Positions 48,581-53,256 of a stretch of 64,000 nt of DNA are shown here, in pieces. Numbering within the stretch: position 1 is the stretch's first letter; each line of letters begins with the position of its first letter. A program made the position numbers and the translations under genes. Below the pieces are notes generated by a model. The model did no database searches and was not told the DNA's origin. It saw nothing but the letters and a program-made list of their open reading frames with translations. Source of the stretch: Comamonas antarctica (lineage in GTDB: Bacteria > Pseudomonadota > Gammaproteobacteria > Burkholderiales > Burkholderiaceae_C); NCBI RefSeq assembly GCF_013363755.1, contig NZ_CP054840.1:634001-698000 (forward strand), in the 5' to 3' direction.

Positions 48581-51057
48581 AACTGGCCGCGCAGGGTCAG
48601 CACCGCATTGCGCGGCGCGCCGTAGTAGTTGCTGCCCGAGGCATAGCCCAGGGTCTGGTAGTAGACCTTGTCGAACACGTTGTTGACGTTGAGCGTGACC
48701 GTCCAGCGCGGGTCGATGCGGTACTGCAGCATCAGGTTCCAGACCGAATAGCCGCCCTGCGTGAAGTCATAGTCGCGGATCGGCGTCCAGTTGGGGCCGT
48801 ACAGCGTGTCGGCCTTGTATTGGCTGCTCTGGACATGGGCGCTGCCGCCCACGCGCCACTGCGACAGCTCGCCCGGCAGCGTGTAGGCCGTCGACAGCTT
48901 GAGCAGATGGCGGGGCGTGATGCTGCTGTAGGCGGTGTCGGTGCTTTCGTCCCTGGTGCTGGCATAGGTGTAGCCCGCGCTCACCTGCCAGCCCGGCTGC
49001 ACTTCACCGCCCAGCTCCACGTCGAAGCCGCGGCTCGTGACCTTGCCCTGCGGCAGGTAGCAGCAGTTGCCCGACCATTCCTCGTAGTTCGACGGGTAGC
49101 GCGTGTCGAGCACGGCGGTGCCGGTGCGCTCGACATTGAACACGCTGAAGGTGGCGTTCAGGCGGCCGTCGGCGAGCTCGCCCTTGACGCCGGCTTCATA
49201 GCTCTTGCCCTTGATCGGGGCCAGCGAGTTGCCCGGCGGCGGGCCGGCCTTCGACAAGGCCTGGGGCTGGAGGATCGATGCATAGCTCACATAGGCCGAC
49301 CATTGGCCGTCGAGGTCGTAGATCACGCCGCCATAGGGCGTGGCCTTGGCGGGCTCGGTGAAGCGGCTGCCCGAGGCCAGGCTCCAGCTGCCGTCCGCGC
49401 CCAGGCTCTCATACACCTGGTTGAACTTGTATTTCGCATAGCGCGCGCCGAGGATCACGTGCAGGCGGTCGGTCGGGTGCAGGCGCAGCAGGCCGTAGCC
49501 GCCGCGCTGCTCCTGGCCCCAGGGGTTGTAGCGGCGCGAGACCGCGCCGGCCGGCGTCGGGTTCCACGCACCTGGATGGAACACGTCGATGGCGTCGGTG
49601 TATGCGGGCGAACTGGAGTAGCCGACGTTCCAGAAGCTGTCCACCTTCTGCTGGTCCACGCCCAGCAGGAATTCATGCTGGCGGCCGGCGAGCGAGAACG
49701 TGCCGGACAGGTTGGCGTCGATCACGGTCTGCTGGTTCTCGTACAGGTAGTGGCCGCCGCCGTTCCAGGTCGAGCCTGCGCCGGTCGCGCGGTTCACCGC
49801 GCCGTAGCCGAAGGCCGTGCTGCCGTCATAGTCGGCGGTGGCGCGCGTGGCGTTGAGCTTGAATTTCCAGCGGTTGGCAAAGCGGTGTTCGAACCCGGCA
49901 AAGACCTCGCTGACCTTTTGCTCGCTGGTGGCCCAGGGCTGGGTCAGCGCGGTGCTGCGCGGCAAGCCGATATCGCTGCCATCGTCATAGCGCGGCACGT
50001 CGCCGCCGCCCACGCCCTTGAGTTTCGTATTGGCACGCGTCAGGCCGGCGGTGAGCAGCGTATCGGGTGAGAGGTCGGCCTCGATCACGCCATAGATCTG
50101 CGGCGAACGCGCGTGCTTGATGTCCACATACGAACCCGAATCCTGGTACGACAGCACGGCGCGGCCGCGCACGCGCCCGTCCAGCGCCAGCGGGCCCGTG
50201 GCGTCCACCATGGTGCGGTAGTCGTCCCAGCTGCCCACGGATTGCTGCACGATGAAGCGCGGCTCGGCCAGCGGCTTCTTGCGCACGACGTTGATGATGC
50301 CGCCCGGGTCGCCCACGCCGCCGAGCAGGCCGGACGCGCCGCGCATCACTTCCACGCGGTCGTAGAACGCCATGTTCTGGTTCACGCCGTAGGTGTAGCT
50401 GGCGATGTTGAGCGGCGCGCCGCCATCGATCTGCATGCTGTCGATCTGGAAGCCGCGCGCGTAATAGTAGTTGGAGTCGAAGTTGGGCTGGGAGCGCGTG
50501 ATGCCGGGCGTGGCCGCGAGCGCGTCGCGGATGTCGAGCATCTGGCGGTCTTCGATCTGGCGGCGCGTGATCACCGACACCGACTGCGGAATCTCGCGGA
50601 AGGACTGGTCGGTCTTCGACGCGATGCTGGTCACGCGGCTGGTGTACGAGTCCGTGCCTTCGGTCGTGCCATCGGCGGCGCGGCGCGCCGCGACGCGCAC
50701 TTCGGCCAGCGATGCCGTGGGGCCGGCGCGCTCGATCACCAGCGTCGAGCCATCGATGCGCGCGGCCAGGCCGCTTCCGGCCAGCAGGCGCTCGGCCGCC
50801 GCGGCGGGCGCCAGCGTGCCGCGCACCGCGGGCGCCGTGCGGCCCTGCAGCAGCGCGGGCGCGGCCAGCATCTGCATGCCCGCCTGGCGTGCCAGATCGG
50901 ACAGCGCCGCGTCCAGCGGCTGGGCCGCGATATCGAAGGAACGCGCGGCGGTGGCGGCCGCGGGCGCGGCAGGCTGGGCCCAGGCTGCGGGCGCGGCCAG
51001 CGCCAGAATGGCCGCGGCAATCAGGTGGCGGCGGGGATGGAAGGAACGCAATGGCAT
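48577..51057 (-). CDS. TonB-dependent siderophore receptor with N-terminal STN signalling domain
   Basis: This 826-residue receptor has a signal peptide (to about AWAQ, residue 28), an STN domain (FDIAAQPLDAALSDLARQAG..., about 39-110), a plug domain (TDQSFREIPQSVSVITRRQI, VEVMRGASGLLGGVGDPGGI) and a 22-strand barrel ending in phenylalanine (LTLRGQF). It is of the FpvA/FhuE-like ferric-siderophore type. The STN domain talks to a FecR-like periplasmic domain, here provided by the fused regulator encoded 105 bp upstream (51163-52434). Ferric-siderophore binding would trigger release of the sigma part and raise expression of this gene. Confidence 0.94.
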   Translation of the reverse strand: MPLRSFHPRRHLIAAAILALAAPAAWAQPAAPAAATAARSFDIAAQPLDAALSDLARQAGMQMLAAPALLQGRTAPAVRGTLAPAAAAERLLAGSGLAARIDGSTLVIERAGPTASLAEVRVAARRAADGTTEGTDSYTSRVTSIASKTDQSFREIPQSVSVITRRQIEDRQMLDIRDALAATPGITRSQPNFDSNYYYARGFQIDSMQIDGGAPLNIASYTYGVNQNMAFYDRVEVMRGASGLLGGVGDPGGIINVVRKKPLAEPRFIVQQSVGSWDDYRTMVDATGPLALDGRVRGRAVLSYQDSGSYVDIKHARSPQIYGVIEADLSPDTLLTAGLTRANTKLKGVGGGDVPRYDDGSDIGLPRSTALTQPWATSEQKVSEVFAGFEHRFANRWKFKLNATRATADYDGSTAFGYGAVNRATGAGSTWNGGGHYLYENQQTVIDANLSGTFSLAGRQHEFLLGVDQQKVDSFWNVGYSSSPAYTDAIDVFHPGAWNPTPAGAVSRRYNPWGQEQRGGYGLLRLHPTDRLHVILGARYAKYKFNQVYESLGADGSWSLASGSRFTEPAKATPYGGVIYDLDGQWSAYVSYASILQPQALSKAGPPPGNSLAPIKGKSYEAGVKGELADGRLNATFSVFNVERTGTAVLDTRYPSNYEEWSGNCCYLPQGKVTSRGFDVELGGEVQPGWQVSAGYTYASTRDESTDTAYSSITPRHLLKLSTAYTLPGELSQWRVGGSAHVQSSQYKADTLYGPNWTPIRDYDFTQGGYSVWNLMLQYRIDPRWTVTLNVNNVFDKVYYQTLGYASGSNYYGAPRNAVLTLRGQF

Positions 51058-51128
51058 GTGAAGAAACCCTGGTGATGAAGCGACGGGCCACGCATTGGCG
51101 TGGCTTCCAGGGTTGAAACGAACGGGCG

Positions 51129-51141
51129 CGCGAGTTCCCTC
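51129..51141 (-). promoter_or_regulatory. Possible sigma-IutY-like promoter element before the receptor gene
   Basis: On the minus strand, GGGAACT lies about 75-80 bp before the receptor start at 51057 and is followed by a C/G-rich spacer and CGTTTC. GGAA-type -35 boxes are usual for iron-starvation ECF factors. The spacing is short and the match is weak, so this is only a pointer. Confidence 0.25.
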
Positions 51142-51162: not shown

Positions 51163-52434
51163 CTAGCGGCGTGAAATCAGCAGCCGCCGTTCGGCGCCAG
51201 GCCCGTCATCGCGCACCGTCACCGGCAGGCTCGAGGGCAGCAGGCGCAGCCAGGTGCCGGCTTCGGCAATGCGCACGCGGCCGAACACCGGGAGATCCGC
51301 GGCATCGGGCGCGACGCGCAGCGCCACCGGGCTGTAGCGCGCCAGCCGCTGCACGGCCTCGGACAGCGGCACATCGCGAAAGTCCAGCCAGCCCTTGCGC
51401 CAGGGCCCCACCTCGCCCCGGGCCGGTGCGCGCTCCACGCCGGCATCCGGCGACCAGCGCAGCGCATCGCCCGCATGCAGGTCGTGCCGTGCGGCGCCCG
51501 GTGCCTGCACCTGCACATGGCCCTCCTCGACAGCCACGCGCAGCGCGCCGTCATCGTCCACGGCCACCTCGAAGCGCGTGCCGACCACGGTGACGCGCGC
51601 GCCCCGTGCCTCGACGACAAACGGCCGTGCGGCATCGGAGGCAACGCTGAAGAAGGCCGTGCCGGCCAGCAAGGACACCTCGCGGCGGCCCGCGTAATAG
51701 CGCAGCTCGGCGCGGCCCAGCGCATCGAGCGCGATGCGGCTGCCGTCGGGCAGATCGTGCTCCAGCTGCTGGCCGCGCCGCGTGGCCAACGCCAATTGCC
51801 AGCCGGGCACCCACTGGCGCCAGGCCTGCCAGGCGGCGCTGCCCGCCATGCCCATGCCCGCCAGCCCCAGCAGCGTCGACAGCGTGCGCCGGCGGCCGCG
51901 CCGCGGCGCCGCGCTCTCGCCGCGCCAGCGCAGCAGCGCGGCTTCCACGGCATCCAGCGCGCGCATCACTTCGCGCTCGATCGTCTTGACCGACACGCCA
52001 TGCTCCCGCGCCAGCTGCGCATGCGCCATGCCCTCGAGCCGGTCGGCAAGGAAGATGGCGCGGCAGCGCGCGGGCAGGGCGGCCAGCGCCGCGTCGACGG
52101 CGGCCAGCGCCTCGCGGTGCAGGTGGCGCTCGGCCACATCGCGTACCGAGGCCGCCGACGGCAGATCGATATCGCCGCTGGCATCGAAACGCTCGGCGGT
52201 GCGGCCTGCGCGGCGCAGATGGTCGATGGCAATGTGGTCGGCCACGGTGTAGAGGTAGGCGCGCGACGCCGCCTGGCTCTCTTCGCGGGGCCGCGCTTCG
52301 CGCTCGGCCAGCCGCAGCCAGGTGTCGTGCACCAGGTCCTGCGCCGTCTGCCGGTTGCCGGTGCGCCGGGCGACAAACCCGATCAGCGCCGAGTAGCTGT
52401 TGCTGAACACATCGGGATACAGGGAATGGGACAT
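51163..52434 (-). CDS. Fused ECF sigma / FecR-type anti-sigma regulator (IutY-like)
   Basis: One uninterrupted 423-residue protein joins two normally separate cell-surface-signalling proteins. Residues 1-170 are a FecI-type sigma: region 2 is SALIGFVARRTGNRQTAQDL with VHDTWLRLAER and RAYLYTVADHIAIDHLRR, and region 4 is LPARCRAIFLADRLEGMAHA with EHGVSVKTIEREVMRALDAV. A basic stretch (RRGRRR) and one membrane helix (about 184-203) follow, then a periplasmic FecR domain (LATRRGQQLEHDLPDGSRIA, RGARVTVVGTRFEVAV) and a C-terminal STN-binding-like region (WLDFRDVPLSEAVQRLARYS). The usual cytoplasmic FecR anti-sigma domain (about 80 residues) has no room. The known parallel is Pseudomonas putida IutY, which is cleaved by Prc and RseP to free the sigma part. 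No strong ribosome site is seen before 52434. Confidence 0.9.
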   Translation of the reverse strand: MSHSLYPDVFSNSYSALIGFVARRTGNRQTAQDLVHDTWLRLAEREARPREESQAASRAYLYTVADHIAIDHLRRAGRTAERFDASGDIDLPSAASVRDVAERHLHREALAAVDAALAALPARCRAIFLADRLEGMAHAQLAREHGVSVKTIEREVMRALDAVEAALLRWRGESAAPRRGRRRTLSTLLGLAGMGMAGSAAWQAWRQWVPGWQLALATRRGQQLEHDLPDGSRIALDALGRAELRYYAGRREVSLLAGTAFFSVASDAARPFVVEARGARVTVVGTRFEVAVDDDGALRVAVEEGHVQVQAPGAARHDLHAGDALRWSPDAGVERAPARGEVGPWRKGWLDFRDVPLSEAVQRLARYSPVALRVAPDAADLPVFGRVRIAEAGTWLRLLPSSLPVTVRDDGPGAERRLLISRR

Positions 52435-52493: not shown

Positions 52494-52512
52494 AGGAATG
52501 CTTCTCATTACG
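52494..52512 (-). promoter_or_regulatory. Fur-box-like site before the fused sigma/anti-sigma gene
   Basis: On the minus strand the 19-mer CGTAATGAGAAGCATTCCT matches the Fur consensus GATAATGATAATCATTATC at 12 of 19 positions, with the central AATGAnAAnCATT well kept. It is 60 bp upstream of the regulator start, as expected for an iron-repressed sigma gene. Confidence 0.5.
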
Positions 52513-52602: not shown

Positions 52603-52719
52603 TGCCTATCTTGCGCCCTTGGCGCATAGACGTGGCTCACGCCGTTTGCAATACGCGGCGGGCAGTGTGTGCCGGCAACGCATGCAAGCGATGGAACAAC
52701 CGAAGACTGGAATGGAATC

Positions 52720-53256
52720 ATGACTGCAAACGCTCCTCAATGTCATCCCGCGCACTTCCATGAAAAAGAGATGCCCCATCACGTCAAGAGCCAGGGGTCC
52801 CCAGGGCAGGAGGCAAGCCGTTGTGCGACGGGCAATGCCGTGCACAAAGACGCGGCGGTCAGCACGCTCCCTCATATTGGCAATGTCGTATTCAGCGGTT
52901 TTGCGGGCGCGGTCGCCGGGGCGACCCAAGGTAGTGGATATGGCGCGGCCGGCGGTGCAATTGTCGGGGGAATGACGTACTTCCTGTCGTACAAGCATAT
53001 AGCTCAGATTGTGCACGGCGCAGGATACTCAGCTCTTATTGGCACAGGTGTCATGGCATACGTACAAGATCCTGTGCTCGACCCGCTGTTTCCCGTCATG
53101 GTGAAGACAGGTTCGTGCGTGGGCTTCTTCCTGGGTTCCGTGGTGGGCGCAGCGCGCGGGCTGTGGAATGCGCCTTACGAGGAGATCTTCGATACCTCGG
53201 TCCACGACAAGGCCGGACTGGTCGGCGTGTGCGGCGCTGGCGAGTCCGGCTATTGA
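52720..53256 (+). CDS. Hypothetical glycine-zipper membrane protein
   Basis: This 178-residue protein starts MTANAPQCHPAHFHEKEMPH, a His-rich polar N-terminus, then has a hydrophobic glycine-zipper stretch (GNVVFSGFAGAVAGATQGSG, GAAGGAIVGGMTYFLSYK) and two more hydrophobic segments (GYSALIGTGVMAYVQD, GSCVGFFLGSVVGAARGLWN). It has no signal peptide. I recognise no family. GC content is visibly lower than in neighbouring genes, which may mean a recent arrival. The ribosome site is weak (GGA). A strong hairpin follows the stop. Confidence 0.6.
   Translation: MTANAPQCHPAHFHEKEMPHHVKSQGSPGQEASRCATGNAVHKDAAVSTLPHIGNVVFSGFAGAVAGATQGSGYGAAGGAIVGGMTYFLSYKHIAQIVHGAGYSALIGTGVMAYVQDPVLDPLFPVMVKTGSCVGFFLGSVVGAARGLWNAPYEEIFDTSVHDKAGLVGVCGAGESGY

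Follow-up and report, generated by a model that had tools for sequence, protein, structure and literature searches.

Does a gene that joins an ECF sigma factor to a FecR-like regulator encode a working signalling protein, and what would hold its sigma part in check? The question arises from the 64,000-nucleotide window of Comamonas antarctica analysed here (contig NZ_CP054840.1, positions 634,001 to 698,000). The classical cell-surface signalling systems FecI/FecR, PupI/PupR and FoxI/FoxR share with this locus a FecR domain, an STN-like end and an STN receptor, but there the sigma factor is a protein apart from the regulator, and the latter carries a cytoplasmic anti-sigma domain (residues 1-82 of PupR, as given in passages of PMC7186176), which the window protein lacks. 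We propose that the window protein is probably a single-chain regulator of the type of IutY from P. putida, serving a siderophore receptor in cell-surface signalling.

The earlier note on this DNA had described a frame at 51163-52434 and left its strand unstated; the frame is intact over 423 codons from an ATG start, and it lies on the minus strand, the plus-strand reading of the interval meeting an early stop (Table 1). Its view that the sigma and FecR parts form a single polypeptide agrees with our analysis, in which one open frame carries Sigma70_r2, Sigma70_r4_2 and FecR by Pfam. The cytoplasmic anti-sigma domain is indeed absent, as that note had also stated: no Pfam match to DUF4880 is listed for the 423-residue protein up to E 1, and the gap between the sigma part and the membrane helix is short. 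The NCBIfam FecR model scores 112 bits against a cut-off of 385, and its alignment, to residues 179-408, begins at model position 73, so that the first 72 model positions are without counterpart in the fused protein. Pfam FecR_C gives no match in this protein. ESAAPRRGRRRT directly precedes the helix, which starts near residue 185. From W170-R-G172 to the helix there are 12 residues, of which only five are arginine; the "13 basic residues" described earlier were thus right as to shortness and overstated as to charge. A single-sequence structure model of the protein (mean pLDDT 49.8) was too poor to use. Adjoining the fused gene at 52669-53256 is a divergent frame of 195 codons with glycine-rich hydrophobic stretches.

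Table 1. Features of the fused gene, its receptor neighbour and the putative control sites, in window coordinates.
Feature	Position	Strand	Basis
Fused ECF sigma / FecR-like gene, 423 aa	51163..52434	-	Open frame and Pfam domains
Sigma region 2, residues 14-79	52198..52395	-	Pfam PF04542 Sigma70_r2, E 9.5e-12
Sigma region 4, residues 111-161	51952..52104	-	Pfam PF08281 Sigma70_r4_2, E 3.1e-12
Arg-rich linker, residues 173-184, with twin arginine R181-R182	51883..51918	-	R181/R182 unchanged across all 58 aligned fused proteins
Membrane helix, about residues 185-205	51820..51882	-	Hydropathy peak starting at residue 185
FecR periplasmic domain, residues 216-308, with invariant G285-T286	51511..51789	-	Pfam PF04773, E 1.3e-18; invariance
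Receptor-facing STN-like end, about residues 345-423	51166..51402	-	Family profile aligned to PupR chain 6ovk_R
TonB-dependent siderophore receptor, 826 aa	48577..51057	-	Pfam and NCBIfam (TIGR01783 above cut-off)
STN signalling domain of the receptor, residues 63-110	50728..50871	-	Pfam PF07660, E 7.7e-7
Promoter-like motif ahead of the receptor gene, candidate target of the fused sigma part	51117..51141	-	Related motif in 36/59 loci; a single strict-form site genome-wide
Fur-box-like site ahead of the fused gene	52497..52509	-	2 mismatches to a 13-base Fur consensus

The source genome (5.03 Mb, 3 contigs) supplies its own control. It has ten FecR matches, and the window gene is the only fused one; each of the other nine has a separate adjacent ECF sigma frame. 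Pfam finds DUF4880 in eight of these nine unfused FecR proteins, above its cut-off in seven; the ninth (L036) has about 100 residues ahead of its FecR domain, without a DUF4880 match.

That the design might be wider than one example had been suggested before, and it is: in an even sample of the GTDB family, matches at E <= 1e-60 were found in 28 of 399 genomes and 18 of 141 genera, and reading the loci gave at least one frame with both parts in each of the 28 genomes. A search of 61 genomes closer to the window (its own, 36 of the same genus and 24 others of the order) gave, among the matches listed, stop-free matches over both parts in 16 of the 37 genus members and in none of the 24 others. 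Three genomes (G007, G018 and G020) have three copies each. Among the matches listed for samples outside the GTDB family, no stop-free full-length match was seen in 369 genomes of the class (E <= 1e-40), 280 of the order (E <= 1e-50), 249 of the phylum (E <= 1e-40) or 248 of a Pseudomonadaceae-like family reached through G616 (E <= 1e-35). The class, order and phylum samples include some members of the GTDB family itself, and in the wider samples the best four to seven candidates per genome were scored (at most the best seven in the Pseudomonadaceae-like family), so that distant fusions such as IutY can be missed. At least five full-length matches in the Pseudomonadaceae-like family have one internal stop, and the four inspected are two-gene pairs. 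Two such pairs, at L138:1495-2877 and L139:1489-2847, keep the sigma and FecR parts in frame with each other, separated by a single stop, and have only about 60 residues ahead of the helix; they are possibly a stage towards fusion. The scan of named genomes returned one locus, an unfused Bacteroidetes pair (L031). Plasmid records with a match numbered 1257, and the best 60 of these held one single-piece fusion, from Diaphorobacter sp. HDW4B (Comamonadaceae), the only named fused relative found. It is annotated merely as "sigma-70 family RNA polymerase sigma factor" (WP_240933398.1), and annotation thereby conceals at least one named fused example.

Across the family the architecture is uniform. 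Both parts lie on one frame in 60 of the 61 loci read, and the alignment comprises 58 intact fused proteins (the window protein and 57 relatives), the frameshifted L052 and L116 having been left out. All 58 match Pfam regions 2 and 4 and FecR, and none matches DUF4880 (E <= 0.01). The distance from the end of the sigma part to the helix has a median of 18 residues in fused proteins (n=55, range 9 to 41, plus one value of 124 from a mis-called helix), against a median of 103 codons in unfused pairs (n=72, 47 to 181); no value was obtained for 5 of 60 fused and 8 of 80 unfused regions. The alignment has 22 invariant columns, which include the twin arginine and G285-T286. Positions 220-427 of the 433-position family profile match the PupR periplasmic domain (6OVK; E 1.6e-28), and the receptor-facing STN-like end therefore seems to be kept, despite Pfam FecR_C matching just one of the 58 proteins. 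Three fused genes (L128:5701-7257, L129:5575-7152 and L130:5943-7547) have a long Ala/Pro/Asp-rich insertion within the FecR domain. At three other loci, all from draft assemblies (L052:6678-7991, L116:5403-6779 and L135:5335-6804), the fused gene runs over two frames with the break inside the sigma part; these are pseudogenes or assembly errors. At L053, L054, L055, L057, L059, L098, L100, L127, L131, L132 and L134 the fused gene adjoins an ordinary sigma/FecR pair, and in these clusters there is a TonB receptor with each, placing two signalling systems side by side.

The fused proteins do not appear to share one ancestor. Two trees, one built on the FecR part (129 rows, 55 fused) and the other on the sigma part (119 rows, 50 fused), both with near-copies removed, agree with each other. 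The main fused clade has support of 95.9 and 98.3, respectively. A second fused lineage, the pair G398 and G338, is placed among unfused pairs, and one of its proteins is 53% identical to a two-gene pair on a Diaphorobacter plasmid. A third, one copy in G375, groups with the unfused L019 and with L033 of the C. antarctica genome. A fourth change of label on each tree, at L135, is counted separately because that copy is broken by a frameshift. A single origin of all fusions is rejected by AU tests (p-AU 0.00032 for the FecR part and 0.000017 for the sigma part), on trees that were quick and had some long branches flagged, the third lineage being one draft genome. Five unfused relatives of the second and third lineages (L017, L018, L023, L134 and L019) all match DUF4880 at E <= 0.001, the match of L017 falling under the Pfam cut-off; the anti-sigma domain was therefore probably lost with each fusion. 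On balance we favour the view that sigma-FecR fusion is recurrent, having occurred at least three times independently in this one family besides IutY, each time with the anti-sigma domain gone and the receptor-facing part kept.

The neighbouring receptor had been noted to contain an STN domain, which Pfam supports in the window and, mapped across the loci, in 58 of 59 receptors; Plug is found in all 59 (E <= 0.01, counted in the N-terminal 430 residues or the piece at hand, with the start shifted in 11 that have long overlapping frames). At 59 of 60 loci a TonB receptor gene begins on the same strand no more than 2.5 kb downstream of the fused gene. At the remaining locus (L126:5170-6678), there is no recognisable TonB receptor within the 12 kb examined. 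The best NCBIfam models for the window receptor are FauA (475 bits, cut-off 900) and FhuE (398 bits, cut-off 666), both below cut-off.

A Fur-like site, scored with at most three mismatches to a 13-base Fur consensus, is present in the 200 bases before the fused gene at 39 of 58 loci, where single-base shuffles would give 0.64 (L052 and L116 excluded). Such upstream sites are missing at 19 of the 58 loci, and no Fur-like site occurs inside the 58 fused genes. The window site is the only match with at most two mismatches in the window, where 7 of 100 shuffles of the window also produced one. Between the fused gene and the receptor gene lies a promoter-like motif of the form (C/G)AGG(A/G)(A/T)(A/T/G), 11-14 bases, (A/C/T)CGT. 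Among the 30 spacers of 40-300 bases, 20 contain it (mean of the shuffles 0.15, highest 3), a comparison flattered by the motif having been read off the same spacers and counted over related loci that are not independent. Around the fused stop it is found at 16 of the 29 other loci, the shuffles having been run for the 30-spacer set only. As controls, one of 60 upstream regions and none of 60 gene interiors carry it. Its strict form has a single site genome-wide, at 51117-51141, and the reversed control gives 0. The motif is missing at 23 of 59 loci, including those of the second lineage (L124 and L125) and the third (L127). The window motif is likely to be the target of the fused sigma factor.

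The precedent for such a protein is IutY (PP2192), already named in the earlier note and, in passages of PMC5411451, of the same plan. IutY, which serves aerobactin through its receptor IutA, has an N-terminal ECF sigma factor, one helix and a FecR-like part in one chain beside a cell-surface signalling receptor; we compare it through its published description. Its sigma4 region ends at residue 164 and a truncation at residue 168 lacks the helix (passages of PMC9249621 and PMC5411451), which leaves no anti-sigma domain between them. It differs in length (374 residues against 423) and in that its receptor takes aerobactin, the window receptor being nearest to FauA- and FhuE-type models. The excerpted text of PMC5411451 reports that Prc trims the periplasmic part of IutY and RseP then frees the sigma part, that the truncation at residue 168 is active without signal, and that longer truncations keeping the helix need RseP. 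Overproduced receptor signalling domain blocks proteolysis of both IutY and FoxR; in the case of Fox, this domain also shields the anti-sigma factor ahead of the signal, according to passages of PMC11637429.

Homologues of RseP, Prc and TatC are encoded in the C. antarctica genome. To the architecture, the missing anti-sigma domain, the gene order, the conserved sites and these protease and Tat genes, all observed here, we add protection, proteolysis, release and promoter use by analogy with the IutY and FoxR work. Under low iron, Fur repression of the fused gene would be lifted. The protein would cross the inner membrane once, its own helix holding the ECF sigma part at the cytoplasmic face, with the FecR/STN-like part in the periplasm, probably exported via the twin-arginine signal. 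As long as ligand is absent, the STN domain of the receptor would bind and protect the periplasmic part; once ferri-siderophore is bound, Prc would trim that part and RseP would cut the helix. The sigma part, released with a short stub, would then transcribe the receptor gene from the 51117-51141 motif. Tethering would itself be the inhibition, and an anti-sigma domain would not be needed. Passages of PMC5411451 add that tethered IutY truncations were undetected in the absence of RseP; instability rather than tethering could therefore explain their inactivity, and even the IutY data are no clean proof that tethering by itself inhibits.

Two further features of the periplasmic part can be set beside published proteins. 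IutY is made constitutive by changes at D210, R231, A240, F251, V253 and W301 (in passages of PMC5411451), and residues of the same type stand in the window protein at D230, R251, A260, F272, V274 and W345, putative counterparts placed by published position and spacing rather than by alignment, with the spacing matching up to A260, one residue off at F272 and an insertion before W345. Within the fused family two of the six are invariant and four nearly so. The invariant G285-T286 resembles the Gly-Thr self-cleavage bond of FoxR (Gly191-Thr192) and FecR (Gly181-Thr182) described in passages of PMC9249621, residues that in FoxR are termed non-conserved in a passage of PMC7186176.

Tethering is one of several ways to read the locus. 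The fusion could stem from an error of sequencing or assembly, or be a single chance event with no function, and 3 of the 61 loci read (L052, L116 and L135) are indeed split by frameshifts. An error hiding a stop or frameshift is already refuted by the 58 intact frames; their identical domain content (58 of 58) and the receptor kept at 59 of 60 loci make the broader version hardly credible too. The window gene can also be set against a relative of equal length, L042, which is 79% identical: differences at the three codon positions number 23/10/52 in the sigma part, 26/23/72 in the FecR part and 7/6/8 in the linker and helix, the last without a third-position excess. Alternatively, the sigma part may work while still tethered, or be controlled in trans by another of the genome's FecR proteins. 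Nine other FecR genes are there to do so, but all nine have their own adjacent ECF sigma gene, and membrane-bound IutY truncations need RseP (a passage of PMC5411451); we regard this reading as very improbable.

It is less far-fetched, and still unlikely in our judgement, that a contact in cis silences the sigma part, the Arg-rich linker or another part of the chain masking regions 2 and 4, with proteolysis relieving that contact rather than a mere tether. R181-R182 is invariant in the 58 fused proteins and the linker is rich in arginine, and the earlier note had proposed its RRGRRR as a possible mask. That proposal fares poorly: within the 15 residues before the helix or the first four of the helix itself, an RR pair is found in 57 of 58 fused proteins and, equally placed, in 65 of 78 unfused FecR proteins (from 60 and 80 distinct regions, two of each dropped for want of a clear helix), and mean Lys+Arg near the helix is 4.91 in fused and 4.35 in unfused proteins. 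Moreover, residues 1-168 of IutY are active (a passage of PMC5411451). The pair resembles an internal Tat signal such as that reported for E. coli FecR (Passmore 2020, cited in a passage of PMC11533796 and in the reference list of PMC10924467), which may be a simpler account of it than sigma masking. Tethering is our preferred reading.

Other one-chain designs exist. ECF48, ECF52, ECF53 and ECF36 also join a sigma factor to a membrane-bound regulatory part, but these groups are actinobacterial, with zinc-finger-type anti-sigma parts in ECF48, ECF52 and ECF53 and N-terminal helices with DUF2275 in ECF36, not FecR beside TonB receptors (passages of PMC8999054). Passages of the same paper place IutY in ECF243, with an asterisk for "only certain members of the group", and give it as the only experimentally characterised case; papers from 2017 to 2022 term it unique in the passages available (PMC5411451, PMC7593790, PMC9249621). 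We found no FecR fusion besides IutY described in the open-licence literature, a scope outside which the NAR 2021 ECF classification falls. We found no published account of the breadth of the family, of its repeated origin or of the candidate promoter.

In summary, the fused family, with its varied receptors and candidate promoter, provides natural single-gene systems where proteolysis is the only way for the sigma factor to get free. Such fusions separate two roles that FecR proteins usually combine, sigma binding and signal relay, and make inhibition by tethering alone testable. If our reading is correct, the anti-sigma domain would be dispensable in cell-surface signalling, tethering alone could silence an ECF sigma factor, and the version in C. 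antarctica would be a minimal circuit with a single target promoter.
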